Of a stretch of 52,386 bases of DNA, positions 1,729-17,051 are shown in pieces; within the stretch, counting starts at the first letter, position 1, and every line of letters begins with the position of its first letter. The notes under the pieces were generated by a model. That model did no database searches, had not been told where the DNA came from, and saw only the letters and a program-made list of their open reading frames with translations. The DNA is taken from the NCBI GenBank assembly GCA_001657315.1, contig LYSV01000028.1:34353-86738 (forward strand), read 5' to 3'. The DNA comes from Flammeovirgaceae bacterium BBD 1991-12. GTDB lineage: Bacteria; Bacteroidota; Bacteroidia; Cytophagales; Cyclobacteriaceae. A program made the translations under genes and the position numbers.

Positions 1729-2355
1729 ATGGATAAGACTCAGTACAGGGTAGAACGAGGATTCTCTGATCAGGAGCTTGTGATTGCGATAAAGTCAGGT
1801 AAAGACCTGGACAAAGCGTTGGATTTTATTTACAGAAATTATTTCAGAATGCTACAGACTATCATTCTCAATAACAGCGGCAACGAGGAAGACGCCCAGG
1901 ATATTATTCAGGAGGCACTGGTAGCTTTTCTGGATATGGTGCAGAATGACCGGTACCGTGCTGAGGCGAGCGTAAAATCCATGCTTTACACTGTAACGAG
2001 GAATCTTTGGTTGACTGAGTTGAGAAGAAGGGGAAGCGCTGAAAAACGGGATGTTTACTTTGGCGGCCAGAAGGATAACATTGAGAAGGATGTAACGGAC
2101 CAGATAGCTTACCGGGAAGGGCTGAAGCTGGTGGCCGAGGTTTTTGAGAGCCTCGGAGAAACATGCAAAAAGATATTGACTCTCTTTTATTTTGAGAATT
2201 ATTCTATGAAGGAAATACTGGAGGAGGTAAACTATGAGAATGAACAGGTACTAAGGAACAAAAAGTATAAGTGTCAGAAGGAGCTGATAAGGCAGGTAGA
2301 GGCCTCCCCCGTATTGTATAATAACCTTAAAAGTGCATTGGAACATGGAAGATAA
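1729..2355 (+). CDS. ECF-type RNA polymerase sigma factor (module 1)
   Basis: The 208 residues show sigma-70 region 2 (about residues 28-100: DFIYRNYFRML, EEDAQDIIQEAL, SVKSMLYTVTRNLW) and region 4 (about 140-195: CKKILTLFYFENYSMKEI, a helix-turn-helix). Regions 1 and 3 are missing, as is normal for ECF sigma factors. The 3' end overlaps the start of the TPR membrane protein gene by 11 bases, the usual arrangement of a sigma factor with its membrane regulator. It is a paralogue of the sigma factor at 5057. The stress signal is unknown. Confidence 0.9.
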   Translation: MDKTQYRVERGFSDQELVIAIKSGKDLDKALDFIYRNYFRMLQTIILNNSGNEEDAQDIIQEALVAFLDMVQNDRYRAEASVKSMLYTVTRNLWLTELRRRGSAEKRDVYFGGQKDNIEKDVTDQIAYREGLKLVAEVFESLGETCKKILTLFYFENYSMKEILEEVNYENEQVLRNKKYKCQKELIRQVEASPVLYNNLKSALEHGR

Positions 2356-3112
2356 CAGAGCATTTGAATATTACGGTCGGTTTGATGATTACCTGAAGGG
2401 GGAACTGGATGAAGAGGAAAGACAAAAGCTGGAGGAGGAATTATCTGCTGACAGTGAATTACAGCAGGAATTTGACCTCTTTAAAATGTCTGTTGATATA
2501 GTACACGTCTCTTCCATAAACAGGGCAGTAAAGGAGGCGCACGACAGGTTTTTGGATAGCAATCCGGGCTCAGGGACACAAAACAGCACATCAGTAGTTA
2601 CCTGGTCCCTCAGAATAGCTGCCGGATTGCTTGTGGTTATGGTCAGCTACGGACTGCTGCAATTTTCCTTTGTCAGCTCCACCGGACTGTACGAATCATT
2701 GTACACAGCCTGGCAGTTACCGGTAACCAGAGGAGCGCAGCTCACCTATACCCATCTGGATTCACTCTATCTTCATCACAATTATGACAAGGTGATCATG
2801 CAATATGAAAGCCTGGAAGAGAGGTCGCTGCGGGATTACTTCATAGCCGCCATGGCTGCCATGGAGCTTAATGATTATGAGAGGGCTATCAAGTTGTTCC
2901 AGTTACTTAAGCAGGAAAATGAAAAAACAGATACCCGACTTTTTGAGGATGAGACTGATTACTACATGGCATTGAGCCATTTGAAAAACGGTGATTACCA
3001 GCAGGCGCTCTTCATTTTTCAGAAGATACGGGAGGATCATTCTCATCTGTATAACACTGCTGTATCAGGCAGCACGATATTCAAGCTTCAGATCCTGCAG
3101 TGGAAGGAGTAA
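2345..3112 (+). CDS. TPR membrane protein, probable anti-sigma partner (module 1)
   Basis: The start is the ATG at 2345, inside the end of the sigma gene; the ATG at 2333 is less likely because it deepens the overlap. The 255-residue product has an acidic, helical cytoplasmic N-terminus with the FDDYLKGELDEEERQKLEEEL pattern (about residues 10-30) seen in zinc-less anti-sigma-like proteins, one transmembrane helix (about 85-105), and a C-terminal tail with TPR-like helices (YDKVIMQYESL, YERAIKLFQLL, YQQALFIFQKI). The overlap supports a sigma/anti-sigma pair. Inhibition of the sigma factor is inferred, not shown. Confidence 0.75.
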   Translation: MEDNRAFEYYGRFDDYLKGELDEEERQKLEEELSADSELQQEFDLFKMSVDIVHVSSINRAVKEAHDRFLDSNPGSGTQNSTSVVTWSLRIAAGLLVVMVSYGLLQFSFVSSTGLYESLYTAWQLPVTRGAQLTYTHLDSLYLHHNYDKVIMQYESLEERSLRDYFIAAMAAMELNDYERAIKLFQLLKQENEKTDTRLFEDETDYYMALSHLKNGDYQQALFIFQKIREDHSHLYNTAVSGSTIFKLQILQWKE

Positions 3113-3267: not shown

Positions 3268-3726
3268 ATGATCACGATCTATACCGATGGAGCGGCAAAA
3301 GGAAACCCCGGACCGGGAGGATACGGAGTAGTGTTGAAGGCTATGGTCAATGGAAAACTGTTCAGAAAAGAGCTTTCTGAGGGTTTCAGAACTACTACCA
3401 ATAACAGAATGGAACTGCTGGCAGTGATCAGAGGTCTGGAAGCCCTGAAAAATCATGGCTCTCAGGTAGTGATCTATTCGGATTCCAAATATGTAGTGGA
3501 TGCGGTGGAAAAAGGCTGGATCTGGAATTGGGAGAAGAAGGGATTTAAGAATAAGGCGAATGTAGATCTTTGGCAGCGTTTTATTCCTTTATTCAAACAG
3601 CACAAGGTCAGGTTTCAGTGGGTAAAAGGCCATGCTGGCATCCCTGAAAATGAACGTTGTGATCAACTGGCCGTAGCCGCTGCGGAAGGCCCGGATCTCA
3701 GGCCTGATGAGGGGTATAACGGCTGA
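3268..3726 (+). CDS. rnhA: Ribonuclease HI
   Basis: This enzyme cleaves the RNA strand of RNA-DNA hybrids in the cytoplasm (primer removal, R-loop control). The 152-residue length is standard. The catalytic carboxylates are all present: D7 in IYTDGAAKGNPG, E49 in TTNNRMEL, D72 in IYSDSKYV and D132 in NERCDQLA; the basic protrusion WIWNWEKKGFKNK and VKGHAG loop are also present. It is a single gene between the first sigma module and a long non-coding stretch, so it is probably transcribed alone. Confidence 0.96.
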   Translation: MITIYTDGAAKGNPGPGGYGVVLKAMVNGKLFRKELSEGFRTTTNNRMELLAVIRGLEALKNHGSQVVIYSDSKYVVDAVEKGWIWNWEKKGFKNKANVDLWQRFIPLFKQHKVRFQWVKGHAGIPENERCDQLAVAAAEGPDLRPDEGYNG

Positions 3727-4461: not shown

Positions 4462-4743
4462 ATGAACGAAAACGAAAATTCCAACCGCTATGATGAAGAT
4501 GTCCCGCTAACCTTCATTGAAGGCCGACTTGATAGTGCTTCTCAGGGGCAGGAAGGCAGCTCTTCCAAAAAAAATATGTCTTTTAAATACACGGGCAAGC
4601 GATCTCTGGCTATGAGGGGACTGGTATCCGGAAAAAAATACTACTTTAATAAACCCGGCAAGGTAATAGAAATTGATCACCGGGATCTGGTATTTTTTGA
4701 AGGAGTTCCCAATCTGGAAAAGCTGGACTCGTCTATGAGCTAA
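4462..4743 (+). CDS. Hypothetical 93-residue soluble protein
   Basis: I do not recognise this with confidence. The N-terminal 40 residues are polar and probably disordered (Asn, Ser, Glu, Gln rich). The C-terminal half forms beta-like strands: AMRGLVSGKKYYFNKPGKV, then EIDHRDLVFFEGVPNLEKL. That second half resembles small phage or structural proteins that end in a VPNL motif, but the similarity is weak. The ATG at 4462 is the only good start. It sits between the two sigma modules in the same orientation, more than 300 bp from each. Confidence 0.55.
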   Translation: MNENENSNRYDEDVPLTFIEGRLDSASQGQEGSSSKKNMSFKYTGKRSLAMRGLVSGKKYYFNKPGKVIEIDHRDLVFFEGVPNLEKLDSSMS

Positions 4744-5056: not shown

Positions 5057-5611
5057 ATGAATGAAGACGCAGCGGCTGAGATCTCAGGTGTCAGCATGTA
5101 CGGCAGCATAGAGGCTGTCTACAGGGATTTTAGAGAGGAGTTTATACAATGGATGTACAAGACATACTCTTGTCCAAAGGAAGAGGCAGTTGAAATATAC
5201 CAGGTGGCAATAGTGATTGTGTATGAAAACCTTATTTCAGGTAAGATCAGGGAATTAAAAAGTAGTATAAAAACCTATTTATTCGGAGTGGGGAAAAACA
5301 AATATATGGAACGGAGAAGGGAAAGCCAGAGGTTCATCCATGAGTGGGATTTTAACCTCGAGGAGGATGAGTATGAAAGGAAGGAGCTTTCCGAAGAAAG
5401 AGAGCAGGAGGTGAATAAGGTTATGAGTTGTCTTGGTGAACTGGGAGAAAAATGTAAGGAAATCCTTCAAATGTACTACTACCAGAACTTGTCCATGGAA
5501 GAGATCGCCGTCGCACTGGACTATAAAAACGCAGACACCGTCAAAAATCTGAAATACAAGTGTATGAATCGGCTAAGAAGTATGTTTAAAGCAAAATATG
5601 GAGGGAGATAA
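5057..5611 (+). CDS. ECF-type RNA polymerase sigma factor (module 2)
   Basis: The start is the ATG at 5057; the codon before it is TTG and only adds one residue. The 184-residue protein has sigma region 2 (about residues 20-95, EEFIQWMYKTYSC, EAVEIYQVAIVIVYENL, SIKTYLFGVGKNKYMERRR) and region 4 (about 125-175, LGEKCKEILQMYYYQNLSMEEIAVAL). It is a paralogue of the sigma factor at 1729: region 4 and the following KNLKYKCMNRL stretch match the counterpart. It is followed directly by its own TPR membrane protein. Confidence 0.9.
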   Translation: MNEDAAAEISGVSMYGSIEAVYRDFREEFIQWMYKTYSCPKEEAVEIYQVAIVIVYENLISGKIRELKSSIKTYLFGVGKNKYMERRRESQRFIHEWDFNLEEDEYERKELSEEREQEVNKVMSCLGELGEKCKEILQMYYYQNLSMEEIAVALDYKNADTVKNLKYKCMNRLRSMFKAKYGGR

Positions 5612-5618
5612 ACGAGGA

Positions 5619-6386
5619 ATGGAGCAGGAAGAAAAAGATATGGAATTGGTCAGTGATTATCTGTATCATCGCTTGGGAGATGAAGAAAGACTGGCTTTTG
5701 AGGCCAGAATGGCTGTGGATGAGGAGTTCAGATCGTTTTATGAGGAGATCAGACTGATGATCAGGGGTATAGGAAGTTATGGCCGCAGGGAAAATCTCAG
5801 GAAAGTAGAGCTGCTTGAGTCTGAGCTTTCGGCCGGAGCACCTGCACGGGTACGTTCGTTGAAATCTGCCAAACGATATTACTGGCTGGCGGCGGCAGCT
5901 GTGGCTGTGATAGCTGTCAGCTCCGTTTTACTTACCGGCCCCGGGCAGCCGGATACTCAGTCATTATTCGAAAACTATTACGAACCCTATCCCAACGTAT
6001 TTGAGCCTACCAGGCGTGGCGAACCCACTGAGAGTGAAGTTTCCAGGAGAAAAAAGGCTTTTATTGCCTATGATAATGCAAGGTATGGTGAAGCGGCTCA
6101 ACTTTTTGAGGGCCTGATAGTTGACTCTGACAAAATAAACCAGGATATTGTATCGCTGTACCTGGGCAATTGCTATATAGAGCTCGGAAGAACGGCGGAC
6201 GCCATTGATATTTTTGAAAAAATAGAGAAGGAGAGTGTGATGCGTGATCAGGCTCATTGGTACCTCGCAATGGCATGGATAAAAGAGGGGCAAATAGATA
6301 AGGCCAGGAAGGTGCTGGAAGAGCTGGAGAAGTCAGGAGGTAGTTATTCGGAGAAGTCGGGTGAGATATTGAATAAAATTAACTAG
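5619..6386 (+). CDS. TPR membrane protein, probable anti-sigma partner (module 2)
   Basis: ATG at 5619 is preferred because GGAGG lies upstream at 5600-5604; the ATG at 5598 inside the sigma gene has no such signal. The 255-residue product has an acidic cytoplasmic helix region (VSDYLYHRLGDEERLAFEARM), one transmembrane helix (about residues 85-103, YYWLAAAAVAVIAVSSVLL), then TPR-like helices (ARYGEAAQLFEGLI, GRTADAIDIFEKI, GQIDKARKVLEEL). The architecture and length match the module 1 partner, so the two modules are duplicates. Its proposed role is to hold the sigma factor at the membrane. Confidence 0.75.
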   Translation: MEQEEKDMELVSDYLYHRLGDEERLAFEARMAVDEEFRSFYEEIRLMIRGIGSYGRRENLRKVELLESELSAGAPARVRSLKSAKRYYWLAAAAVAVIAVSSVLLTGPGQPDTQSLFENYYEPYPNVFEPTRRGEPTESEVSRRKKAFIAYDNARYGEAAQLFEGLIVDSDKINQDIVSLYLGNCYIELGRTADAIDIFEKIEKESVMRDQAHWYLAMAWIKEGQIDKARKVLEELEKSGGSYSEKSGEILNKIN

Positions 6387-6409
6387 TATAAATCTAAAAC
6401 ACCAAGAAA

Positions 6410-6619
6410 ATGTCGAGTACGAATTCAGGCGATGGACCTGTCCACAAAGATTTACCCCCACTTCAAAATACAGATGAAAATGATGAATCGTCAGGAATGA
6501 TGGTCAGGTCTGCAGATTGGATAGCAGAAGGCTTTGCGGACACTGTCAGACAAGAATCCGAAGAAATGCAGAAGTCAGAGAGGAGGCATGAACAGAAATC
6601 AAATGAGAATTTCAGCTAA
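6410..6619 (+). CDS. Small polar protein with shared N-terminal tag (paralogue 1)
   Basis: This 69-residue, highly hydrophilic, Glu/Ser-rich protein starts 23 bases after the TPR membrane protein and is probably the third gene of the second sigma operon. Its first 18 residues (MSSTNSGDGPVHKDLPPL) match the first 18 of the next tiny protein (MTNTNSDDGPIHKDIPPL) at 13 positions, with conservative changes among the rest, while the remainders of the two proteins are unrelated. It has no transmembrane segment. I do not recognise a family. The shared tag suggests a common binding partner or a common processing site. Confidence 0.6.
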   Translation: MSSTNSGDGPVHKDLPPLQNTDENDESSGMMVRSADWIAEGFADTVRQESEEMQKSERRHEQKSNENFS

Positions 6620-6646
6620 AAATTTAATAAGTTAAATCCTTGAAAA

Positions 6647-6814
6647 ATGACAAATACGAATTCGGACGATGGGCCTATTCACAAAGATATACCTCCATTA
6701 CTTGCATCCATCAATAAATCGCAAAAGATGATAGCCTATTCTACAGCTACCCTGGCAGTGAGCGGTGCGATATACGTTATATTTCAACTATTCATTTGTG
6801 GTTGTGGCGGCTGA
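6647..6814 (+). CDS. Small membrane protein with shared N-terminal tag (paralogue 2)
   Basis: A 55-residue protein read from the ATG at 6647, 27 bases after the previous small gene. It opens with the NSDDGPIHKDIPPL tag shared with that gene. It then has a linker (LASINKSQKM) and one hydrophobic helix (about residues 29-49, IAYSTATLAVSGAIYVIFQLF), ending in ICGCGG. One soluble and one membrane-anchored protein with the same head, encoded in tandem beside a CHAT protease-like gene, is an unusual arrangement. The coding call rests on the tag match and operon position. Confidence 0.6.
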   Translation: MTNTNSDDGPIHKDIPPLLASINKSQKMIAYSTATLAVSGAIYVIFQLFICGCGG

Positions 6815-6852
6815 AGGGATATGTCTTTAGGGGTACCAGGCGTAAGCGTAAG

Positions 6853-9800
6853 TCATTTTGCACCTGAACGCATTGGTTTAATCCTGAATACCAGGTAAAG
6901 TAAAAACAGACACCCAAGGGATGCTATTGTATAATAGATATAAGCCATCCCTTGAGGTGTCCGTTCAATTGATTCGGGGCTTCCCCATAATTCCATCCCT
7001 GCCCAATTTACGGGGTGTGCGCTGTATTGATCGGCACTGTTCAGGTAATGAATCTGAGCTTCATGAATAGCTGTATTCAAAGGAATGCCCTTGTCTATCT
7101 CTTCGTAGGTTTTGCCCATTATCATTGCGGTGGAATGATCGTTGATTCGCCAGAGTGTAAGTAGTACACTCTTACAACCGGCAAATGAAAAGCCTCTGGC
7201 CATACTGTAAACACCTTCAGAACTAAAGATCTTACCGTAGCCAGTCTCACAGGCACTTAGTACGGTCAGGTCATTGTCAAGATTTAGATTGTACAGTTCG
7301 TAAGCAAACAATTTTTCATCTTTAAATTGTAAAAAATTAGTATACATATCATTTTGGCTGGCCCCACCATGTATAGCCAGGTGGATTATGCCATATTTGG
7401 GAGCTTTGGTCATAAATGTAGCTTTGAGTACATCCTGATCAGCTATGAACTCACCAGCCATTATGTCGGCTATTAAATTTATTTCTTTGATTGTCCCCGG
7501 AAGATTGATTAATTCCTGAGTTTCCTGCTCCTCATTTGACCAACCGAAAGCAAGTAACCCGGTTTTGGAATTTTTCAACCGGGGTGTGAAATGAGCAGCT
7601 GCGTCATGGGCATAAGAAACAATATATTTACGTGCCACGTAGTCCAGGTCTTTATAATTTGGTACTGATGTATCAGCAGGTTTAGAAGTGATCAATGCGT
7701 GAAAAGGCAATAGGTTCAATGGCCCGTCAGGAACTATGAAGAGCTTTGTTGGCTTTTGTTTTGGTTCAAGGTCTTTCAGAACAGGTAGTAGAAGTTTACT
7801 GTACAGATTGTATGCGAGGTCACTGTATTTTTTAAAGTCATCGATCAGACTTTCAGGTCTGGGGCCTTTTGCAATGATCTTTGACAACTCATTGATCTGG
7901 TCAGTTAAGGTTGTATCATTTTGGATCTTGACCAAATTTGTTTTATTCGGAGTAGTTGTAAGCACGTACATGGATGTTTCACCGAAAAAATATTCAACAA
8001 AAAGAGAACCTTCTTCTCTATGGATCTTTTCAAATGGAAATATGCCCAGATCCGGTTCCCTGAATCGATACTCCGGGAACATGGTTATCAAGTCATCCTG
8101 CCATTCTGAGAATTGTTCATTCAGAGATAGTATTTGCATACTCACAGATCGCTCCACAGAATCATTCTTATGATTTTCACCTAATATGTATCTTCGATTT
8201 TGTAACAGGGCTATTTCGCTTCTTAGTTTTCGCTCCTTTTTAAGGATACTATCGGGAATATTGTAGTGTGAATAGTTTTTTACCTGTTCCAATCGTTCAG
8301 ACAGTAGTCTGGACTTACTTCTTTCCATCAAAAAATATGCTGTTTTCAGGTACTGGCTATCACCGGATTCTGTGAAAAGCAGGTAGCTGCATTCAATTGC
8401 GGCCTCATAGATAAAATAGCTTTTCTGCATTAATTGAAGTTTGGACATTTCCACTTCCTGAGAATTCCAGTATGCATTCATTAAACTTTCGGACAGTTGA
8501 AAACATTCCAGTGCCAATTTTAATTGAGTCAATTGATTGGATTGGGTAAATAGTGCCATGAGCGCTTTTCCCTTACTGGCTATAACTTCATACAGATATG
8601 CGCGTTCTTCAAGAATCTGGTAAGATGGATTTGACCAATTCTCCAGATTACCCGCAGATGTGGCCACCTGAATAGAGTTCTGGGAATAATGCAGGGCAGA
8701 ATCAAACCATTGGTTCCCGAGCATTAGATCCGCCAGATATTTATAGGTGTATGATAAAGCAAAGTGACTTGTATTCTCATCTGATTGTTGGATTTTCAGA
8801 GCATATCTGTAATTCTGCAGGGAACCTTCAAACAGACTTAGTTTGTTTAAACCACCCGCTTTGATTATATAGGCATCTGCCAGTCTCCTTGTATCATTTG
8901 GAACGTGATTATTTATTAATACTATCATACTATCAGCACATGCAATGGCACTTTTTGGATCATTTGAGGTGATGAAGGCTACGCCCAGATTGTAGTAGTC
9001 ATGAGCTAATTCCGAGTAAGACGGATGACGCATAGAAGCTCTGAAACTCAAGGATTTTTTATAGTACTCTATTGCTCGTTTTGATTGACTCCTGTTATCA
9101 TAAATATTGGCGATCATACCGAAACATCTTACGAGAGAAATAGTATCCTGAACATTGTCGGATTCCAGTGCTTCAATAGCTTTAAACCCATAAGCCAGTG
9201 CCTGATCAAAGTCTTTTAATGAGCGTTTTGTTGTGGCAAGATTATAATAGGTTCTGTATAGAAGTCTGGTATCAGTTTTATCGAGCCCCTTTAGTGAATT
9301 TAAAGCCAGTTGAAAATATCTCTCCGCTTTCAGGAAATCCCGAATGTAGTAACGGTATATTTCACCAATGCCATTATAGCTTTCGATCACCTTTTCATGG
9401 CGTTGTCCCAGTAGATTAAGTCTGGTTCTCAATGATTGATCATGAGCTTGCAACGCTTTATCCAACTCGTTACTTCTTGTGTAAAAGATTCCAAGAGCAT
9501 AGTGGGCACTTGCCAGAGCAAGGCCGTTTGGTCCTTTGCTTTTTCCGATTAAAACAGCCGAATCTAAACTGGGTTTCGCAAGCTCGAAATTCCTCAACCC
9601 TGAAAAAGCGTACCCTTTTCCTGCCAGCGCATAAATGAGAGTTTCCCAGTCTCCTTCCTTTTTTGCTCCGGCCATAACATCATCATAGACCTTAAGAGCC
9701 TGACCATATTTCCGCTGCCGGGCCAGTTGATCCGCCTGCTCAAGCAATGTTGTGGTTTGTTCATCCCCGGTACGAAACACTTCTGCATTTAACTGAGAAA

Positions 9801-9870
9801 ATGTAGAACTCAACAGTATAAGCAAACCAATTACTATAGATTTCACAGCTAAAAAACGCTTTGATTTCAA
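6853..9870 (-). CDS. TPR-CHAT protease-like protein, exported and membrane anchored
   Basis: CHAT domains are caspase-like cysteine peptidases. The 1005-residue protein has a signal peptide (about residues 1-29), many TPR helices (about 35-420), a helical linker, a C-terminal CHAT domain (about 660-960) and one transmembrane helix near the end (about 972-992). The catalytic pair is visible: H834 in HLAIHGGA and C874 in LSACETG, followed by the typical GFSFAGCKSVLLTLWRIND. Signal peptide plus tail anchor puts the domain outside the cytoplasm, probably periplasmic. It converges on the second sigma operon and its two tagged small proteins, which are candidate partners or substrates; that link is inference. 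Confidence 0.9.
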   Translation of the reverse strand: MKSKRFLAVKSIVIGLLILLSSTFSQLNAEVFRTGDEQTTTLLEQADQLARQRKYGQALKVYDDVMAGAKKEGDWETLIYALAGKGYAFSGLRNFELAKPSLDSAVLIGKSKGPNGLALASAHYALGIFYTRSNELDKALQAHDQSLRTRLNLLGQRHEKVIESYNGIGEIYRYYIRDFLKAERYFQLALNSLKGLDKTDTRLLYRTYYNLATTKRSLKDFDQALAYGFKAIEALESDNVQDTISLVRCFGMIANIYDNRSQSKRAIEYYKKSLSFRASMRHPSYSELAHDYYNLGVAFITSNDPKSAIACADSMIVLINNHVPNDTRRLADAYIIKAGGLNKLSLFEGSLQNYRYALKIQQSDENTSHFALSYTYKYLADLMLGNQWFDSALHYSQNSIQVATSAGNLENWSNPSYQILEERAYLYEVIASKGKALMALFTQSNQLTQLKLALECFQLSESLMNAYWNSQEVEMSKLQLMQKSYFIYEAAIECSYLLFTESGDSQYLKTAYFLMERSKSRLLSERLEQVKNYSHYNIPDSILKKERKLRSEIALLQNRRYILGENHKNDSVERSVSMQILSLNEQFSEWQDDLITMFPEYRFREPDLGIFPFEKIHREEGSLFVEYFFGETSMYVLTTTPNKTNLVKIQNDTTLTDQINELSKIIAKGPRPESLIDDFKKYSDLAYNLYSKLLLPVLKDLEPKQKPTKLFIVPDGPLNLLPFHALITSKPADTSVPNYKDLDYVARKYIVSYAHDAAAHFTPRLKNSKTGLLAFGWSNEEQETQELINLPGTIKEINLIADIMAGEFIADQDVLKATFMTKAPKYGIIHLAIHGGASQNDMYTNFLQFKDEKLFAYELYNLNLDNDLTVLSACETGYGKIFSSEGVYSMARGFSFAGCKSVLLTLWRINDHSTAMIMGKTYEEIDKGIPLNTAIHEAQIHYLNSADQYSAHPVNWAGMELWGSPESIERTPQGMAYIYYTIASLGCLFLLYLVFRIKPMRSGAK

Positions 9871-10188: not shown

Positions 10189-10344
10189 ATGAGAAAACTT
10201 ATTTTTAGCCTGAGTATAATCACCTGTAGTTTGTTGTTTATGGGATGTACAGAAGAGCAGGTGCAACCCGGTGAAACCTACACGAAATCCGATCATACTG
10301 AAGATCCTACGGACGAATTAAAGGAAGATCCTCCACTTTACTAG
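10189..10344 (+). CDS. Small lipoprotein, 51 residues
   Basis: The ATG at 10189 opens MRKLIFSLSIITCSLLFMG followed by C20, a clear lipoprotein signal with a LFMGC lipobox. The mature part is only 32 residues, acidic and polar (EEQVQPGETYTKSDHTEDP), with no fold I can recognise. It lies between the CHAT gene, which diverges from it, and a converging lipoprotein gene. Such small entericidin-like lipoproteins are common; the function here is unknown. Confidence 0.6.
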   Translation: MRKLIFSLSIITCSLLFMGCTEEQVQPGETYTKSDHTEDPTDELKEDPPLY

Positions 10345-10410: not shown

Positions 10411-10761
10411 TTACCGATCCTGTTTTATGAACCTGGATACCAATGTGTCTTTTTCCGTCATAGCTTGCACGAAAAAGAGGCCTTGCCTGTATGATGAGAC
10501 GTTAAAATAAAAATGATGCCAGCCTGCGGGGACAGGGTCCATTCTCTCAATCATTTCCATAGGTGCACCATGAAGATCGATAATTGAGACTTTTACTGCG
10601 GACGGCTGGAACAATTCAAAAGATACAGTCATATCTGAAATGACCGGATTAGGTTCTACAATGATTGCGGAGGTTGGTGTTTCCATTATATCATTGTCAT
10701 CCGATGAACATGACAGCAGAACCACGAGAAATAATATGAGCAGGGGTCGGGAGGAGGTCAT
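10411..10761 (-). CDS. Lipoprotein with secretion-tail-like beta domain
   Basis: The 116-residue protein has a lipoprotein signal (LLILFLVVLLSC, C18) followed by a short acidic linker. It then has a domain resembling the C-terminal type A sorting domain of the type 9 secretion system (about residues 35-114): VEPNPVISDMTVSFEL, VKVSIIDLHG, GWHHFYFNVSSYRQGLFFVQA, SRFIKQ. That domain normally sits at the end of long secreted proteins. Here it stands alone behind a lipid anchor, so it may be a surface lipoprotein or a remnant of a longer gene. Confidence 0.7.
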   Translation of the reverse strand: MTSSRPLLILFLVVLLSCSSDDNDIMETPTSAIIVEPNPVISDMTVSFELFQPSAVKVSIIDLHGAPMEMIERMDPVPAGWHHFYFNVSSYRQGLFFVQAMTEKDTLVSRFIKQDR

Positions 10762-10971: not shown

Positions 10972-12510
10972 TTACCCGGCCCAACCCTCGCGGTCCAGGC
11001 TACGGTACTGAATGGCCTCCGCAAGATGTTCGATCCTGATCTCTTCTGTTCCGGCCAGGTCGGCAATGGTACGGGATACTTTTAGTATGCGGTCATAGGC
11101 CCGGGCAGACAGTCCCAGTTTCTCCATGGCTGTTTTCAGCAGGGTCTTACCTGCTTCATTGATCTGACAGATCTCCTTTACCCTTTGTGATGGCATCATA
11201 GCGTTGCAGTGCAATGATGCATCCCCTTCAAACCGTTTGGACTGAACTTCCCGTGCCGTCATCACCCTTTCCCGTATCTCCTCACTGCTTTCGGTTTTGG
11301 TAGTTCCTGTCATTTCATCAAAGGATACCGGAGTTACCTCCACATGCAGGTCGATACGGTCCAGCAATGGGCCACTCACTTTGCTCAAATAGCGCTGTAC
11401 CACTCCGGGTCCGCACACACATTCCTTTTCCGGATGGTTGTAGTAGCCACAGGGGCAGGGATTCATACTGGCGATAAGCATGAAGTTAGCCGGATAATCA
11501 TGTGATACCTTTGCCCGGGATATGGTCACCCTACGCTCCTCCATGGGTTGGCGCATTACCTCCAGTACCGTACGTTTAAACTCCGGCAACTCATCCAGGA
11601 ACAGTACACCATTATGAGCCAATGATATTTCTCCAGGCTGTGGATTACCACCACCACCTACCAGTGCCACATCACTGATGGTGTGGTGTGGACTTCTGAA
11701 AGGACGGGAAGATATCAGCGCTGCATCCGAGCCCAGCCGGCCTGCTACGGAATGGATCTTGGTCGTTTCCAGTGCCTCATGCAGGGAAAGGGGAGGAAGA
11801 ACGGAGGAAAGCCGCTTGGCGAGCATAGTCTTACCCGCTCCGGGAGGGCCTATCATGATCACATTGTGCCCGCCCGCTGCTGCGATCTCCATGGCTCTTT
11901 TAATATTGTCCTGCCCCTGCACATCGGAAAAATCCACTTCGTAATTGTTCAGCTGGGCCATGAAGACATCCCGGGTATCCATCTTCAGAGGAGCAATGGA
12001 GACCTTACCCTCGAAAAAATCCACGGCTTCCTGCATGTTTTCTACCCCTATGACCTCAAGATCGTTGACGATTGCTGCCTCGCGGGCATTTTCCTTAGGA
12101 AGTATGAAGCCCCTGAATTTGTTTTTTCGGGCTTCTATAGCTATTGGTAGTACCCCTTTGATTGGCCGAAGCTCACCATCCAGTGACAATTCACCCATCA
12201 CCACATACTCGTCCATCTTTTCTCCCTTGAATTGCCCTGAGGCCTGCAGCACACTCAGTGCAATAGGAAGGTCATAGGCGCTGCCCTCTTTCCTGATATC
12301 AGCCGGCGCCAGATTGACTACCACCTTTTGTCTGGGCATACGGTAGCCATAGTGTTTCACCGCCGATTCCACACGATGGGCACTTTCCTTGACAGCGCTG
12401 TCCGGCAGGCCGCTCATCCAGAACTTTGTGCCCTGTACTACGGTGACCTCAATAGTGATGATCCGGGCATCGACACCGAATACCGCTGCTCCATAGTTTT
12501 TAGATACCAT
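10972..12510 (-). CDS. YifB/ComM family Mg-chelatase-like AAA+ ATPase
   Basis: The 512 residues match the family length. In order: an N-terminal Lon-protease-like fold domain (about 1-170; the LAPADIRKEGSAYDLPIAL signature), Walker A GPPGAGKTMLAKR (about 222-234), a SPHHTISDVALVGGG loop, Walker B-like NGVLFLDELPEF, and the zinc-type cluster NPCPCGYYNHPEKECVC near residue 350. The family includes ComM, a hexameric helicase that promotes branch migration during natural transformation. The stop abuts the gmhA stop-start junction at 12510, so the two genes are probably co-transcribed. Confidence 0.93.
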   Translation of the reverse strand: MVSKNYGAAVFGVDARIITIEVTVVQGTKFWMSGLPDSAVKESAHRVESAVKHYGYRMPRQKVVVNLAPADIRKEGSAYDLPIALSVLQASGQFKGEKMDEYVVMGELSLDGELRPIKGVLPIAIEARKNKFRGFILPKENAREAAIVNDLEVIGVENMQEAVDFFEGKVSIAPLKMDTRDVFMAQLNNYEVDFSDVQGQDNIKRAMEIAAAGGHNVIMIGPPGAGKTMLAKRLSSVLPPLSLHEALETTKIHSVAGRLGSDAALISSRPFRSPHHTISDVALVGGGGNPQPGEISLAHNGVLFLDELPEFKRTVLEVMRQPMEERRVTISRAKVSHDYPANFMLIASMNPCPCGYYNHPEKECVCGPGVVQRYLSKVSGPLLDRIDLHVEVTPVSFDEMTGTTKTESSEEIRERVMTAREVQSKRFEGDASLHCNAMMPSQRVKEICQINEAGKTLLKTAMEKLGLSARAYDRILKVSRTIADLAGTEEIRIEHLAEAIQYRSLDREGWAG

Positions 12511-13088
12511 TACTCAGTCAGCTTTTCTATGAGCAGGATAAGTATATGTATGATTTTAATATGAATTTCCTGAATACGATCAGCGTACCCATAATATGGA
12601 ACACAGATCTCCACATCAGCCATGCCGGACATCTCGCCACCGCCATTGCCGGTCAGCGTCACTACCCGGGCACCTTTGTTCCGGGCTTCTTTGATGGCCT
12701 GGATAATATTTTTGGAGTTACCACTGGTGCTTATGGCAAGGATCACATCCTTGTCGGTGGCTACAGCTTTTACATATCTTGAATACACATATTCAAAGCC
12801 AAAATCATTACCTACACAGGAGAGGTGGCTGGGGTCAGCAATGGCAATCGCCGGCAGAGGTTCCCGGTCATCGCGGAACCGGCCCGTCAGCTCCTCTGCA
12901 AAATGCATGGCATCACAATGTGAGCCACCGTTACCACATGAAATGGCCTTGCCTCCTTTTTTAAAGCAGTCAGCAAAGAGCTCAGCAGCTTCTTCGATTC
13001 GTGCTATATTCTGGGGGTCCGAAAGAAATTTTTCGAGTACATCGACAGCAAGCAGTAGCTCCTGCCTGATCAGTAGTTGGTTGTCCAT
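12510..13088 (-). CDS. gmhA: Phosphoheptose isomerase (sedoheptulose-7-phosphate isomerase)
   Basis: It converts sedoheptulose 7-phosphate to D-glycero-D-manno-heptose 7-phosphate, the first step of heptose supply for lipopolysaccharide or S-layer glycans. The 192-residue length equals the family norm. SIS-fold signatures are present: [22 protein letters not shown] (zinc and substrate site), [11 protein letters not shown] (phosphate loop) and VTLTGNGGG. Near the C-terminus, [17 protein letters not shown] carries the conserved Gln, Glu and His. It shares one base with the yifB-like gene downstream and lies 8 bp after the small membrane gene. Confidence 0.93.
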
Positions 13089-13096
13089 AAATGAAA

Positions 13097-13441
13097 TTAT
13101 TCGGTAGTAGCGCCGTCGGACGCCGGGGTATTCCTTGTAGAAACATCACCTTTGGTAGCCTCCTGAAGGTCAAACATCTTGGCCTTGAAGGAATTGGCTT
13201 CATGCTCCAGTCGTTCTACTTCCTTTTTGGTTTGCCTCTGGGCCATGGTTACCATTACAATATTGACTATAAAAAGTATAAGGCCCAATACAGCAGCGTA
13301 GATCATCCAGTCCATTCTATCTCTGAGCCACAGCAGAAACTCAAAATCTTCTGATCGGTAATTGGTGTAAATGGCTGTGATCAGGAATGCGAAATGGAAA
13401 AGAAAATAAACGAGGTAGAATATGGATTTAGGTTTCTTCAT
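13097..13441 (-). CDS. Small membrane protein with coiled coil
   Basis: A 114-residue protein with two transmembrane helices (about residues 8-26 and 45-66) separated by a short loop, then a heptad-like helix ([21 protein letters not shown]) and a polar tail rich in Thr, Ser and Asp. I do not recognise a named family; similar small proteins sit near cell-envelope genes in Bacteroidota. It lies just upstream of gmhA, with an 8-bp gap, in the same direction. Confidence 0.65.
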
Positions 13442-13500
13442 ATGTTACTTTCCGCTATATAACCAACGTAGGGTATTGCAATTAAAACTACAAAAATTAA

Positions 13501-15324
13501 TCAAGTATTCTGCATGGCGCTCAATTTTTTGTAAAGACCGCCACCTTTCACCAACTCGTCATGTGTGCCGCGTTCCACGATCTCTCCGCTTTGTATCACC
13601 ACGATCTCATCAGCATGCTGTATAGTGCTCAGGCGGTGAGCTATCACAATGGAGGTGCGGTTTTGCATGAGATTGGCCAGTGCCTGCTGTACCAGCATTT
13701 CCGATTCGGAATCCAGCGCGGAGGTAGCCTCATCCAGCAGCAGGATTGGCGGGTTTTTCATAATAGCCCGGGCTATGCTTATCCTTTGCCGCTGACCACC
13801 GGATAGCTTCATGCCCCGATCACCAATATTGGTTTGGTAACCGCCTTCCAGTTCCATGATAAAATCATGGGCGTTGGCTATTCTGGCAGCATGTATGACC
13901 TCTTCTTCACTGGCATTGTCTATGCCGAATGCAATATTGTTGAATATGGTGTCATTGAAAAGGATGGATTCCTGGGTCACAATGCCCATCAGCTGCCGTA
14001 GCGATTCGATCCTGCACGCCGTCAAAGGATGATCATCGATCTTGATAACTCCGTCAGTGGGGTCGTAAAAACGTGGAATGAGATCCACCAATGTGGACTT
14101 GCCACCTCCTGAAGGACCTACCAGCGCTACAGTGGTTCCTTTTTTGATCTTAAGGTCTATTTTTTTCAGGACCGGCTCCCTGTCATACGAAAACGATACA
14201 CCCTGAAACTCAATATCCTTGTCAAAACCTTGTATTTCCAGAGCGTTGGCATGGTCCTGAATGGCGGGTGTGGCGTCCACTACTGAAAATATCCTTTCGC
14301 CGGAGGCAATACCTTTTTGTACTCCCGAAAGCCCCTGTGAAAAGGCCTTCGCTGGTGAGATGATCTGAGAAAAAATGGCCAGATAAGCGATGAACTGACT
14401 GGCAGAAAGTGCAGTTTCCTCGTCCAGTACCAGTGAGCCTCCGTAATAAAGGATAATCGTGATGATCCCCACCCCCAGAAACTCCGATACAGGAGAACCC
14501 AGCTCTTTCCGGTAGGAATAGGAAAGATTTACCTTACGGTAATAGTCCGTTTCTGCTCCTATCTTTTTGTTGACATATTCACGGGCGTTGAAAGCCTTTA
14601 TAATCCGCATGCCTCCCAGCGTTTCGTCGAGAATGTTTACAATGCGCCCCAGGGACTGCTGACTCTGGATAGCCTTGCGTTTTAGTTTTTTAACAATATA
14701 GCCCAGCGCCCCACCTGCGATGGGAAGTATGAGAATGGTAAAAACAGTGAGCTTGACAGAAATGGTGAAGAGCAAAATAAAATAAATAATGATCTGCACA
14801 GGCTCCCGAAACAAGGCCTTGGGACTGCTAAGCACGGAAACCTCCACCTCCTGAATGTCATTGGTAATACGGGACATCAGATCTCCCTTGCGTTCGTTGG
14901 TAAAAAAGCCAAGATGCATGCGTGATACCTTTTCGTAGATATCCATGCGTAGATATTTAACAGCATCGAGCCGGATCCGGGCGCTGATCACGGCTGCGAG
15001 GTACCTGAACACATTTGTGAGAAAAACGGACACCAGTACCACAATACAGACAAAGACCAGCGCCTGCTTTTGTCCACTGTTCTCTATGATGGTAGTAAAG
15101 TGATAATTAAAATAGTTACTTATGTATTCTGTGCTGATCTCAAATTCAGTGGGTTTTTCAAACACCACATCAGGTGTCAGCTTAAAAAGTACATTGAGCA
15201 GAGGGATGAGCATGGCCAGGTTGAACGCACTGAAGATCACACTCAAAATAATAAACACAATGTACTGTGGTACAAAAATCCTGAGTTTTCTGGCGTACCC
15301 AAAAATTCGAAAAAATGTTTGCAT
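13501..15324 (-). CDS. MsbA-like ABC exporter (fused permease and ATPase)
   Basis: The 607-residue half-transporter has an N-terminal six-helix transmembrane domain (about 1-330) and a C-terminal nucleotide-binding domain (about 360-600). Seen directly are Walker A GPSGGGKST, the Q-loop VTQES, the signature LSGGQRQRISIARAI, Walker B ILLLDEATSALD and the H-loop IAHRLST. Such homodimers flip lipid A or other lipids across the inner membrane. The neighbouring gmhA and an outer-membrane barrel gene fit an envelope role. It could also be a multidrug exporter; the substrate cannot be decided from sequence. Confidence 0.9.
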   Translation of the reverse strand: MQTFFRIFGYARKLRIFVPQYIVFIILSVIFSAFNLAMLIPLLNVLFKLTPDVVFEKPTEFEISTEYISNYFNYHFTTIIENSGQKQALVFVCIVVLVSVFLTNVFRYLAAVISARIRLDAVKYLRMDIYEKVSRMHLGFFTNERKGDLMSRITNDIQEVEVSVLSSPKALFREPVQIIIYFILLFTISVKLTVFTILILPIAGGALGYIVKKLKRKAIQSQQSLGRIVNILDETLGGMRIIKAFNAREYVNKKIGAETDYYRKVNLSYSYRKELGSPVSEFLGVGIITIILYYGGSLVLDEETALSASQFIAYLAIFSQIISPAKAFSQGLSGVQKGIASGERIFSVVDATPAIQDHANALEIQGFDKDIEFQGVSFSYDREPVLKKIDLKIKKGTTVALVGPSGGGKSTLVDLIPRFYDPTDGVIKIDDHPLTACRIESLRQLMGIVTQESILFNDTIFNNIAFGIDNASEEEVIHAARIANAHDFIMELEGGYQTNIGDRGMKLSGGQRQRISIARAIMKNPPILLLDEATSALDSESEMLVQQALANLMQNRTSIVIAHRLSTIQHADEIVVIQSGEIVERGTHDELVKGGGLYKKLSAMQNT

Positions 15325-15356
15325 AAATAATCAGCCTGCAAGTTAGGCCTTTCACC

Positions 15357-17051
15357 CTAAAACTCATGTAAACGCTGTGGAATATTCCAGCGCAGCACCA
15401 GAGAGGTAAAGTTCGTTTCTTCGTCCAGTTCAGGCAGGGCGCTGTCCAGTCTTCTGTAAATATGTTTCAGGTCTATGAAGAAATTATGTTTCCATTGCCA
15501 CGAAATTGTGAAGTCGCCATAGACCAGATCACTATCCACTCCCTGTCCGATCTCATTCCCGAAGTCCATCTCCCGGCTGGTGTTTTGCAACAGGATGTTG
15601 CTTCCCCAGTTGGAATCGGTGGTATCGGTACCGTAGTTGGCATAGATCAGCCGGGCGGTCAGATTCAACCGGTCCAGAGGCTGATATCGGAGTATCCCTA
15701 CCCACTCCCGGAAGTTGGCCCCCAGTGGATGGGCCAGCGGCTGGCGGTAGTTCGAATAGCTGCCAAAGGGAGTGTCGTGTGTATAGGTGTAAGGGCGGGA
15801 GACGTTTAGCTCACCCTGCAGATCGAGATTTTCCAGCCCAAAAGCGTCAACATACTCTCCGCCGATCTGAAAAGCCCACTTGTTGGCCCACCAGCCGTCT
15901 CCTTCACGAAGATTATCCAGTAAAAACTCGTCGAATACGATCTGCCCGTAGATTGAAATTCTTTTTGCAGCCAGCCACTTGAAGTCTGTCCCCAGCAGTA
16001 CATTGTCAGGGCTCCCGTTCTGCTGCTCAATGGCCCGATAAAAAATAACCGGATTCAGGTACTTCAGTTCAAACCGATTGCCGGAAACGCTGTCCTCATT
16101 GCTGAAGATCACAGCCTCAAATACACCGATATTGAGCTTTTTGCCAATGTTGAGACTTAAATGATGCAATGCCATATACTTGTCGGGATATCGGGAGCTT
16201 CCTGTAAGACCACTGGCATTGCCTGAGATATCAGCTGTCATTTCCGTGAAAAGGTTGGTATAGTTAAACTTCCAGACCTTTGTATTGATCTTCAGGAAAA
16301 GATAGGCAGGCGAGAAATCAGAAAGGATCAGTGAACGGTGGCCATTGCCCACAGCAAACCGGTCATGACCGAACTGGAAATTAATATGCCGGGTGGCATT
16401 GAAGCTTATATAACCCCTCGCAGTAAAGAAGTCCACGCCGTTTTCTTCATAGCCCTTCCAGAAACCTTCATGAGGTACAGTAAGATTGGACGCCCGGCGC
16501 TGGCGTACATAAAGGGGATTTACCAGCTGGTTTTCACCCAAAAAAGAATAAAAGCCTACCTTTTTGTCTATCATCCCCCGAAGCTCCACACCCCGGGTAT
16601 TGATAAAGGTGTTTACATCTTCGGCGCTTTCCCTGCCGGCCGAGAGGTGCAGGACAGGGCTGACATGCAGATCAAAGTCTTTGGTGGAAACATGAAAAAG
16701 ATCAGACTGAACCTTGTAAAAACTTTTAAGAATCGGGCGTTTGGAGGCATTTTCCTCACGGTTTGACCATTCCCAGTTATCATTTCTCAAATACCTTAAA
16801 TTGAACCTGTCACGGCCCGACAGTGTGATCCTGGTGTCAATGGAATCTGCAAACTGAGCGATAAACTCTCTGGGGTAGGCCTTCCAGGAGGTGTGGAGAT
16901 GTGGTGTCAGCTGGCCTGATCTGATCTCATACCGGTCTATAAGGTGATAGTAATCGTCATTCAGGGGGGCGTTGGCGCTTTGTGAAAGTGTGGTGAGTGG
17001 CAGGCAGCTCCCTATCATTAGTAGAGCAGACAGTGGCGGAAATAGCTTCAT
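15357..17051 (-). CDS. Outer-membrane beta-barrel protein (capsule assembly Wzi-like)
   Basis: The 564-residue protein has a signal peptide (about residues 1-23, ending TLSQSANA). The rest is rich in alternating aromatic and polar strands (for example NFQFGHDRFAVGNGHRSLILSD, WKFNYTNLFTEM, LTARLIYANYG), typical of a large barrel, and ends in an amphipathic strand SLVLRWNIP. The GHDRFAVGNGHRSL stretch and length resemble the Wzi capsule-attachment family of Bacteroidota. That placement is moderately secure; the ligand is unknown. It precedes the MsbA-like exporter with a 32-bp gap, consistent with an envelope operon. Confidence 0.7.
   Translation of the reverse strand: MKLFPPLSALLMIGSCLPLTTLSQSANAPLNDDYYHLIDRYEIRSGQLTPHLHTSWKAYPREFIAQFADSIDTRITLSGRDRFNLRYLRNDNWEWSNREENASKRPILKSFYKVQSDLFHVSTKDFDLHVSPVLHLSAGRESAEDVNTFINTRGVELRGMIDKKVGFYSFLGENQLVNPLYVRQRRASNLTVPHEGFWKGYEENGVDFFTARGYISFNATRHINFQFGHDRFAVGNGHRSLILSDFSPAYLFLKINTKVWKFNYTNLFTEMTADISGNASGLTGSSRYPDKYMALHHLSLNIGKKLNIGVFEAVIFSNEDSVSGNRFELKYLNPVIFYRAIEQQNGSPDNVLLGTDFKWLAAKRISIYGQIVFDEFLLDNLREGDGWWANKWAFQIGGEYVDAFGLENLDLQGELNVSRPYTYTHDTPFGSYSNYRQPLAHPLGANFREWVGILRYQPLDRLNLTARLIYANYGTDTTDSNWGSNILLQNTSREMDFGNEIGQGVDSDLVYGDFTISWQWKHNFFIDLKHIYRRLDSALPELDEETNFTSLVLRWNIPQRLHEF

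Follow-up and report, generated by a model that had tools for sequence, protein, structure and literature searches.

A shared peptide tag on small proteins beside a TPR-CHAT protein and an ECF sigma factor in a Bacteroidota genome

RRNPPA receptors are tetratricopeptide repeat (TPR) proteins encoded beside the gene for a small peptide. They have been described as cytoplasmic quorum-sensing receptors (PMC9765709). FimS-type histidine kinases of Bacteroidota use a periplasmic TPR array as the sensor, and the signal of FimS itself is stated to be unknown (PMC11053733). In the DegS/RseA and RsiW pathways of anti-sigma proteolysis, the players are an extracytoplasmic function (ECF) sigma factor, an anti-sigma protein in the membrane and a protease (PMC10028731), while the type III-E Craspase (Csx29, Csx30 and CASP-sigma) brings together a TPR-CHAT protein with a His-Cys dyad, an ECF-like sigma factor and partner genes at one locus (PMC10028731, PMC9729208). 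Our search of the literature, which covered titles and the beginnings of abstracts and included few subscription papers, found no ECF-TPR-CHAT locus of Bacteroidota and no tiny lipoproteins beside TPR kinases. Here, we describe such a locus in a 52,386-nucleotide stretch of DNA from Flammeovirgaceae bacterium BBD 1991-12 (the window; all coordinates are window positions), in which a TPR-CHAT protein, an ECF-type sigma factor, a membrane TPR protein and three small proteins that carry a common peptide tag are encoded side by side.

The sigma factor (184 residues; 5057–5611, + strand) is followed by the membrane TPR protein (5598–6386, +; Pfam TPR_19), a probable anti-sigma factor. Mini-protein 1 (69 residues; 6410–6619, +), which lacks a hydrophobic segment, starts 23 bp after the TPR gene, and mini-protein 2 (55 residues, with one hydrophobic segment and a C-terminal CGCGG; 6647–6814, +) follows 27 bp further on the same strand. 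Their tags are NSGDGPVHKDLPPL at 6422–6463 and NSDDGPIHKDIPPL at 6659–6700. The gene for the TPR-CHAT protein (1005 residues, predicted to be exported; 6853–9870, − strand; PF12770 and TPR_12) converges on this run, and on its other side, across a gap of 318 bp, lies the divergent gene for a predicted tiny lipoprotein of 51 residues (10189–10344, +) that ends in the tag EDPTDELKEDPPL-Y (tag 10300–10338). A sequence-only reading of the same DNA had reported the sigma factor, the TPR membrane protein, two tiny genes and the converging TPR-CHAT gene, all of which lie at these positions. It had also recognized that the two mini-proteins share a head and otherwise differ, one being of soluble type and one having a hydrophobic segment; indeed, 13 of their first 18 positions are identical and the sequences diverge afterwards. 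Both of the tagged genes that it counted are real, while the third, at 10189–10344, was overlooked. The observation was thus real and incomplete, and its interpretation is partly supported by the results below.

The tag consists of an acidic stretch followed by K-[DE]-x-P-P-L. A degenerate DNA pattern for DGPxHKDxPP, allowing at most one mismatch, matched twice in the genome of the window. The other 389 family genomes searched yielded no match, and the backward control pattern matched in 3 of the 390 genomes. By this measure, the tag occurs above chance. The more general form [DE]x(2-10)K[DE]xPP[LIVMF] was present in four tagged genes, the fourth being in a sister locus, and in one unrelated open reading frame (ORF), among the 8013 small ORFs of all loci fetched by then (overlapping loci contributing repeatedly). 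All four tagged genes are within 320 bp of a CHAT gene, in two genomes; the tag, known from these two genomes only, keeps company with CHAT, and the opposite case of a tag without CHAT neighbours was not encountered. A search of 98 genomes with the 69-residue protein gave five genomes with a match at E ≤ 1, of which its own locus alone was convincing (the other four had E-values of 0.25–0.71). A profile built from two mini-protein sequences found no convincing match beyond the two genomes among 291 genomes of the order; seven others scored at E 0.003–0.05, and these long frames, frames with stops or, in two cases, open short frames were taken as chance. The sigma factor search of the genome collection led to one locus and to no further tag locus. 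For the DELKEDPP form, the searches comprised solely that with the lipoprotein in 15 genomes of the genus and that with the mini-protein profile.

The sister locus was found by searching 15 genomes of the genus, which we take to be Fulvivirga, with the CHAT protein; the genome of the window was among the 15. One Fulvivirga genome (G012) encodes a nearly full-length relative with 48% identity (47% in a later alignment), while the next-best relatives by score in these genomes had 24–30% identity, with short ones reaching 37%. The corresponding region (L041) has the same gene order, consisting of a small ORF, the sigma factor, the TPR protein, one mini-protein and the converging CHAT gene, and its flanking genes, judged from protein starts, match the neighbours in the window. 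Identity between the two loci is 82% for the sigma factor, 53% for the TPR protein and 47% for CHAT. A clear block of conserved DNA lies upstream of the sigma factor, and no such block was evident upstream of CHAT in the comparison of the two genomes. The single mini-gene of L041 encodes a 48-residue membrane protein that starts with MTDRNEDPTDELKEDPPLF and is the counterpart of mini-protein 2, with 42% identity. Both membrane mini-proteins also end in a CGC motif after the helix, CGCGG in the window (6797–6805) and CGCP in the sister (L041:10923–10934). The lipoprotein search found no second carrier of the lipoprotein tail in G012.

Residues 38–50 of the window lipoprotein, EDPTDELKEDPPL, are identical at 13 of 13 positions to the head of the sister mini-protein. 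Over 19 aligned codons of lipoprotein tail and mini-protein head, 4 are identical, 10 differ synonymously and 5 nonsynonymously. Within the 13-residue core itself, read by hand from the codon alignment, 4 codons are identical and 9 differ, and all nine changes are silent. Since the silent sites have drifted while the residues stayed the same, selection at the protein level appears to have preserved the tag, in two different genes of two species. This bears on the idea that the shared heads are functionless relics of tandem duplication and local recombination, as might be suspected from their occurrence in tandem neighbours with diverged tails and from the restriction of the mini-proteins to two genomes. 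When the heads of mini-proteins 1 and 2 are compared, 9 of 18 codons are identical, 4 differ synonymously and 5 nonsynonymously, which says little about selection and leaves room for that idea; the nine silent changes out of nine in the lipoprotein/sister core speak against it, and we consider relics very unlikely.

The CHAT domain was identified with 157.4 bits against a curated cut-off of 24 (PF12770, E 7.2e-46), and by sequence the protein is a putative protease. The catalytic residues that had been reported as intact, H834 (codon 7369–7371) and C874 (codon 7249–7251; both numbered from the TTG start), are indeed present, and the His-Cys dyad is conserved in all 21 CHAT sequences that were aligned from the genus, comprising that of the window and those of 20 other loci. 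A basic-hydrophobic N-terminal signal and a C-terminal hydrophobic helix followed by basic residues point to an N-out/C-in arrangement. From such hydropathy and charge arguments, on which all topology calls given here are based, we predict export of the protein and anchoring through the C-terminal helix, with the TPR array and the CHAT domain on the periplasmic side. The Pfam scan (E ≤ 1) showed no kinase domain in the protein, and PADLOC gave a weak match to BovA (E 5.6e-4). A structure model made from two sequences had a mean predicted local distance difference test score (pLDDT) of 51.8, with helical repeats of fair confidence and the CHAT part unmodelled, so that the TPR part alone was usable. 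Solved sequence relatives of this TPR array include kinesin light chains.

The conserved dyad would also suit a different role for the tag, namely as a processing site at or after PPL, where CHAT would cut the mini-proteins and the lipoprotein in the way that Csx29 acts on Csx30, with the freed piece as the effector. In the sister protein PPLF stands right before the membrane helix, and a single cut there would give an end similar to the PPLY at the C-terminus of the lipoprotein; moreover, Csx29 is reported to cut a sigma inhibitor (PMC10028731). However, the lipoprotein tag is already C-terminal, and a cut would free almost nothing, while mini-proteins 1 and 2 run on after the tag with Q and L, respectively. 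We consider this explanation unlikely.

The upstream partner genes fit the expected classes to different degrees. The sigma factor scored 51.8 bits with TIGR02937, above the NCBIfam cut-off of 42.9, which identifies it as an ECF sigma factor, and the Pfam model Sigma70_r4 was also above its cut-off; region 2 was not detected in the Pfam scan. The TPR protein has one hydrophobic segment (96–114) with a charge of +5 before and −3 after it, which places the N-terminal helices inside and the TPR domain outside, according to the prediction, and is in keeping with an anti-sigma domain ahead of a single membrane segment. The TPR domains of this protein and of the CHAT protein, together with the CHAT domain, are therefore predicted to share the periplasmic side, because of their hydrophobic segments and charge bias. 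The two-sequence structure model of the membrane TPR protein (mean pLDDT 64.4) has a helical N-terminal part and a C-terminal TPR part; a Foldseek search yielded nothing at E ≤ 0.001, and TPR proteins headed the list. The membrane TPR protein is probably an anti-sigma factor.

These features suggest a proteolysis-based signalling pathway of the envelope, in which the tag peptide would be read by the exported TPR domain, CHAT would cut the anti-sigma factor, and the sigma factor would be freed. We put this forward tentatively, as a possibility that falls somewhat short of being probable. The sigma factor would be tethered to the inner membrane through the TPR anti-sigma protein, and the exported, C-terminally anchored TPR-CHAT protein would face the periplasm, on the same side as the TPR domain of the anti-sigma protein. 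An extracytoplasmic TPR domain, most probably the one on the CHAT protein, would recognize the tag as its peptide ligand or docking motif. The lipoprotein would display the tag outside the inner membrane, and the mini-proteins would be further carriers. Binding of the tag would then either turn CHAT on or keep it off, and cleavage of the anti-sigma factor by CHAT would release the sigma factor. Kinesin light chains bind acidic peptide motifs, and the relationship of the CHAT TPR array to these proteins supports such a reading of the tag. The proposal is further favoured by the synteny of the two loci, by the silent codon changes in the tag core and, as described below, by the recurrence of ECF-like and TPR-like genes near other CHAT genes and by the TPR sensors that flank other tiny lipoproteins.

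The sequence-only reading had cautioned that the CHAT protein is exported while the tag appears cytoplasmic. This concern is lessened by the lipoprotein, which carries the same kind of tag at its end and whose signal and lipobox predict export; it persists for mini-protein 2, since the head of that protein is still predicted to be inside. The head of the sister mini-protein was assigned to neither side. The tag might instead be a cytoplasmic docking motif. The mini-proteins would then be co-regulators that bind either the sigma factor or the inner portion of the anti-sigma protein, with CHAT as a mere convergent neighbour. The mini-genes, only 23 and 27 bp behind the preceding gene and on the strand of the TPR gene, are placed as co-regulators might be, the charges put the head of mini-protein 2 inside, and the sigma factor (82%) is far better conserved than CHAT (47%) relative to the sister. 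Against this, the same tag also terminates the predicted lipoprotein, whose gene lies on the other side of CHAT, and ECF-like and TPR-like genes are both found near other CHAT genes of the genus (8 of 20, see below). On balance, we find a cytoplasmic docking role quite unlikely.

To see what accompanies CHAT elsewhere, 20 of the 64 CHAT matches in the genus, mostly the best-scoring ones, including that of the sister and excluding that of the window, were surveyed within 3 kb of each CHAT gene for matches (E < 1e-4) to the two sigma factors and two TPR proteins of the window. Both an ECF-like and a TPR-like gene were present at 8 of the 20 loci, at least one of them at 12, and neither at 8. The trio of sigma factor, TPR protein and CHAT thus recurs in the genus, and the tagged mini-proteins are confined to the two syntenic loci. 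At L043 (4961–8477), the TPR-CHAT gene adjoins a lanthipeptide-type gene for a peptide with a pinensin leader, which scored above its cut-off, and at L051 (5154–13049) the TPR-CHAT gene adjoins a lantibiotic dehydratase gene and an ORF that resembles a precursor, with matches to class I leader models that stayed below cut-off.

A conserved head with a diverged tail is also what would be expected if the mini-proteins were precursors of a modified peptide, with a conserved leader and a variable core, and the lanthipeptide-type neighbours of these two other CHAT genes would be in line with it. However, the mini-proteins have no match in Pfam or NCBIfam (nor in PADLOC), no modifying enzyme was found among the neighbouring genes scanned (768–1472, 3268–3723 and 10975–17051), and in the lipoprotein the tag is C-terminal. 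We regard a precursor role as highly improbable.

The tagged lipoprotein led to a broader class of proteins, which we define by a signal peptide, a lipobox cysteine, a start of C-[ST]-E-E-[EQ]-[IV]-x-P or close to it, a variable tail and a length of less than 100 residues. The window lipoprotein matched a hidden Markov model (HMM) of tiny lipoproteins built without it at E 7.4e-10, and it matches the lipobox pattern; its relatives are mostly 41–77 residues long. As a DNA pattern, the lipobox gave 17 matches in 15 genomes of the genus (the backward control gave none), of which 15 were inside tiny lipoproteins, two of these cut by contig ends, and two were chance. We collected 42 regions, 22 from the lipoprotein and lipobox matches in the genus and 20 from top-ranked places of a search in the family, 19 of the latter being outside the genus. 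A tiny lipoprotein could be called in 38 of these, the other four being two regions at contig ends and the two chance pattern matches. In the family search, the lipoprotein profile matched in 212 of 245 genomes at E ≤ 0.02, with many of the weaker matches being starts of long frames, and in a class-wide sample, 3 of 295 genomes matched at E ≤ 1e-6, all of them in the family of the window.

A TPR sensor, defined as a blastp match (E ≤ 1e-10 over at least 250 residues) to references from L092, L093, L101, L043 or the window CHAT protein, is one of the two flanking genes of at least 110 residues at 36 of the 38 loci, and both misses are at contig ends; L092, L093 and L101 count as TPR-sensor loci by construction. 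Among the other genes of the same regions, only 7 of 188 are TPR sensors. Outside the genus, the sensor flanks the tiny lipoprotein at 18 of 19 loci. Classified by the reference that they match, 27 of the 36 flanking sensors belong to the histidine-kinase type and 9 to the TPR membrane type. Of the 48 sensor genes in the regions, 47 encode a hydrophobic stretch within the first 70 residues. The 38 loci are not independent: most kinase cases represent one orthologous locus, in which the kinase gene is divergent and its neighbours are metG-like and typA-like (names assigned by eye on the basis of protein starts), and one genome, G014, supplies three of the membrane-type cases. Loci in which a TPR kinase or TPR membrane protein flanks the lipoprotein are L091–L105, L134–L140 and L172–L191, with one in the window's own genome (G000:C271:4736-5055). 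At the window, the flanking sensor is the TPR-CHAT protein itself, which places its lipoprotein in the class. Four of four kinases tested beside tiny lipoproteins matched the NCBIfam FimS model at E 1e-23 to 2e-43, all below cut-off, and for one of the four, three general kinase models outscored FimS. None of seven tiny lipoproteins tested had a Pfam family at E ≤ 0.1, and for the window lipoprotein NCBIfam yielded only EexN-like similarity of 16.6 bits, a weak match given the EexN cut-off of 33. Several loci have tandem tiny lipoproteins that share their last four residues: four at L097, three at L134, L176, L179 and L191, and two at L095, L185 and L187.

The pairing of lipoprotein and TPR sensor is the more general lead of the two. 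It would allow a wider reading, in which the extracytoplasmic TPR sensors of this family read peptide ligands presented on adjacent tiny lipoproteins, the output at our locus being a caspase-like protease that controls a sigma factor. The ligand would have moved between carriers, being the lipoprotein tail in one species and the head of the membrane mini-protein in the other, with two further mini-protein variants. We rate this wider reading as somewhat unlikely.

Several observations weigh against a tag-operated envelope pathway. Tiny lipoproteins were found at none of the 20 other CHAT loci (HMM, E ≤ 0.5), the window lipoprotein being the sole match among 2188 small ORFs of the 21 regions; for that reason, the lipoprotein–CHAT pairing is not general. 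The tag occurs in two genomes only, and its comparison with the tails of other tiny lipoproteins was not significant (with 15 comparisons per tag, the best shuffle fraction was 0.02). A common motif of tags and other tails, for instance GDGGHVEPPIE in L092, looked suggestive by eye and was dropped as not significant. The TPR protein scored 21.2 bits with the anti-sigma model NF052375, far below the cut-off of 100. Finally, two of the three tags in the window may be cytoplasmic, because lysines K24 and K27 before the helix place the head of mini-protein 2 inside, by prediction, and mini-protein 1 has no hydrophobic segment.

The surroundings of the locus contain further genes of related types. 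A second pair of ECF sigma factor and TPR membrane protein is located just upstream, at 1729–3112, and is kept in the sister genome at 81% and 62% identity, respectively. Before the sigma gene, at 4462–4743, is a 93-residue ORF with 66% identity in the sister genome and no Pfam or NCBIfam family. A lipoprotein-like ORF at 10411–10761 has a weak match to a type IX secretion tail (E 1.9e-5, below cut-off); together with the tagged lipoprotein, it fills the interval from CHAT to an Mg-chelatase-like gene (PF01078), an interval of less than 200 bp in the sister genome. A scan for promoters and terminators gave 14 promoter-like sites against 11.7 expected and 5 terminator-like sites against 2.7 expected.

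How does the locus compare with described systems? The sequence-only reading had seen in it a non-CRISPR relative of the type III-E arrangement, and this holds only as an analogy, for the layout, the dyad and the sigma neighbour. Type III-E CRISPR itself is rejected, since no RAMP gene was found in the genome: PF03787, sought for the fused RAMP domains of Cas7-11, had no match at E ≤ 0.001, in a search whose control matched 4 of 14 named genomes. Unlike in Craspase, the CHAT protein of the window is predicted to be exported and anchored in the envelope, the role of anti-sigma factor probably falls to a membrane TPR protein, and no homologue of the tagged mini-proteins was found outside the two loci. 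The CHAT domain matched Craspase chains at E 0.26–0.38, which is not significant, and three unrelated proteins matched better (0.17–0.19). With DegS/RseA and RsiW, the locus shares an ECF sigma factor, a putative membrane anti-sigma protein and a putative protease, the difference being that the protease is a TPR-CHAT protein of caspase-like type, for which we infer an action on the anti-sigma factor. The window would thus be a case of caspase-like protease output beside a sigma factor, outside CRISPR and, by prediction, outside the cytoplasm. Given that the tag residues were held while the codons drifted, such a non-CRISPR, protease-run sigma switch could be tested directly, for example with the peptide EDPTDELKEDPPLY.

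Like the FimS-type kinases, the CHAT protein would use a periplasmic TPR array as its sensor, with a CHAT domain in place of the kinase as output. The tiny lipoproteins, flanked by a TPR sensor at nearly every locus, are candidate ligands for such FimS-like sensors, the signal of FimS itself being reported as unknown (PMC11053733). The comparison with the RRNPPA family of Firmicutes rests on both being receptors for peptide signals, in our case by proposal. RRNPPA receptors are cytoplasmic, whereas the window CHAT protein has a predicted signal peptide and C-terminal helix, and receptor and peptide would here meet outside the inner membrane, with the peptide carried on a predicted lipoprotein. 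If true, this would be a Gram-negative counterpart of peptide-pheromone signalling that acts outside the inner membrane.

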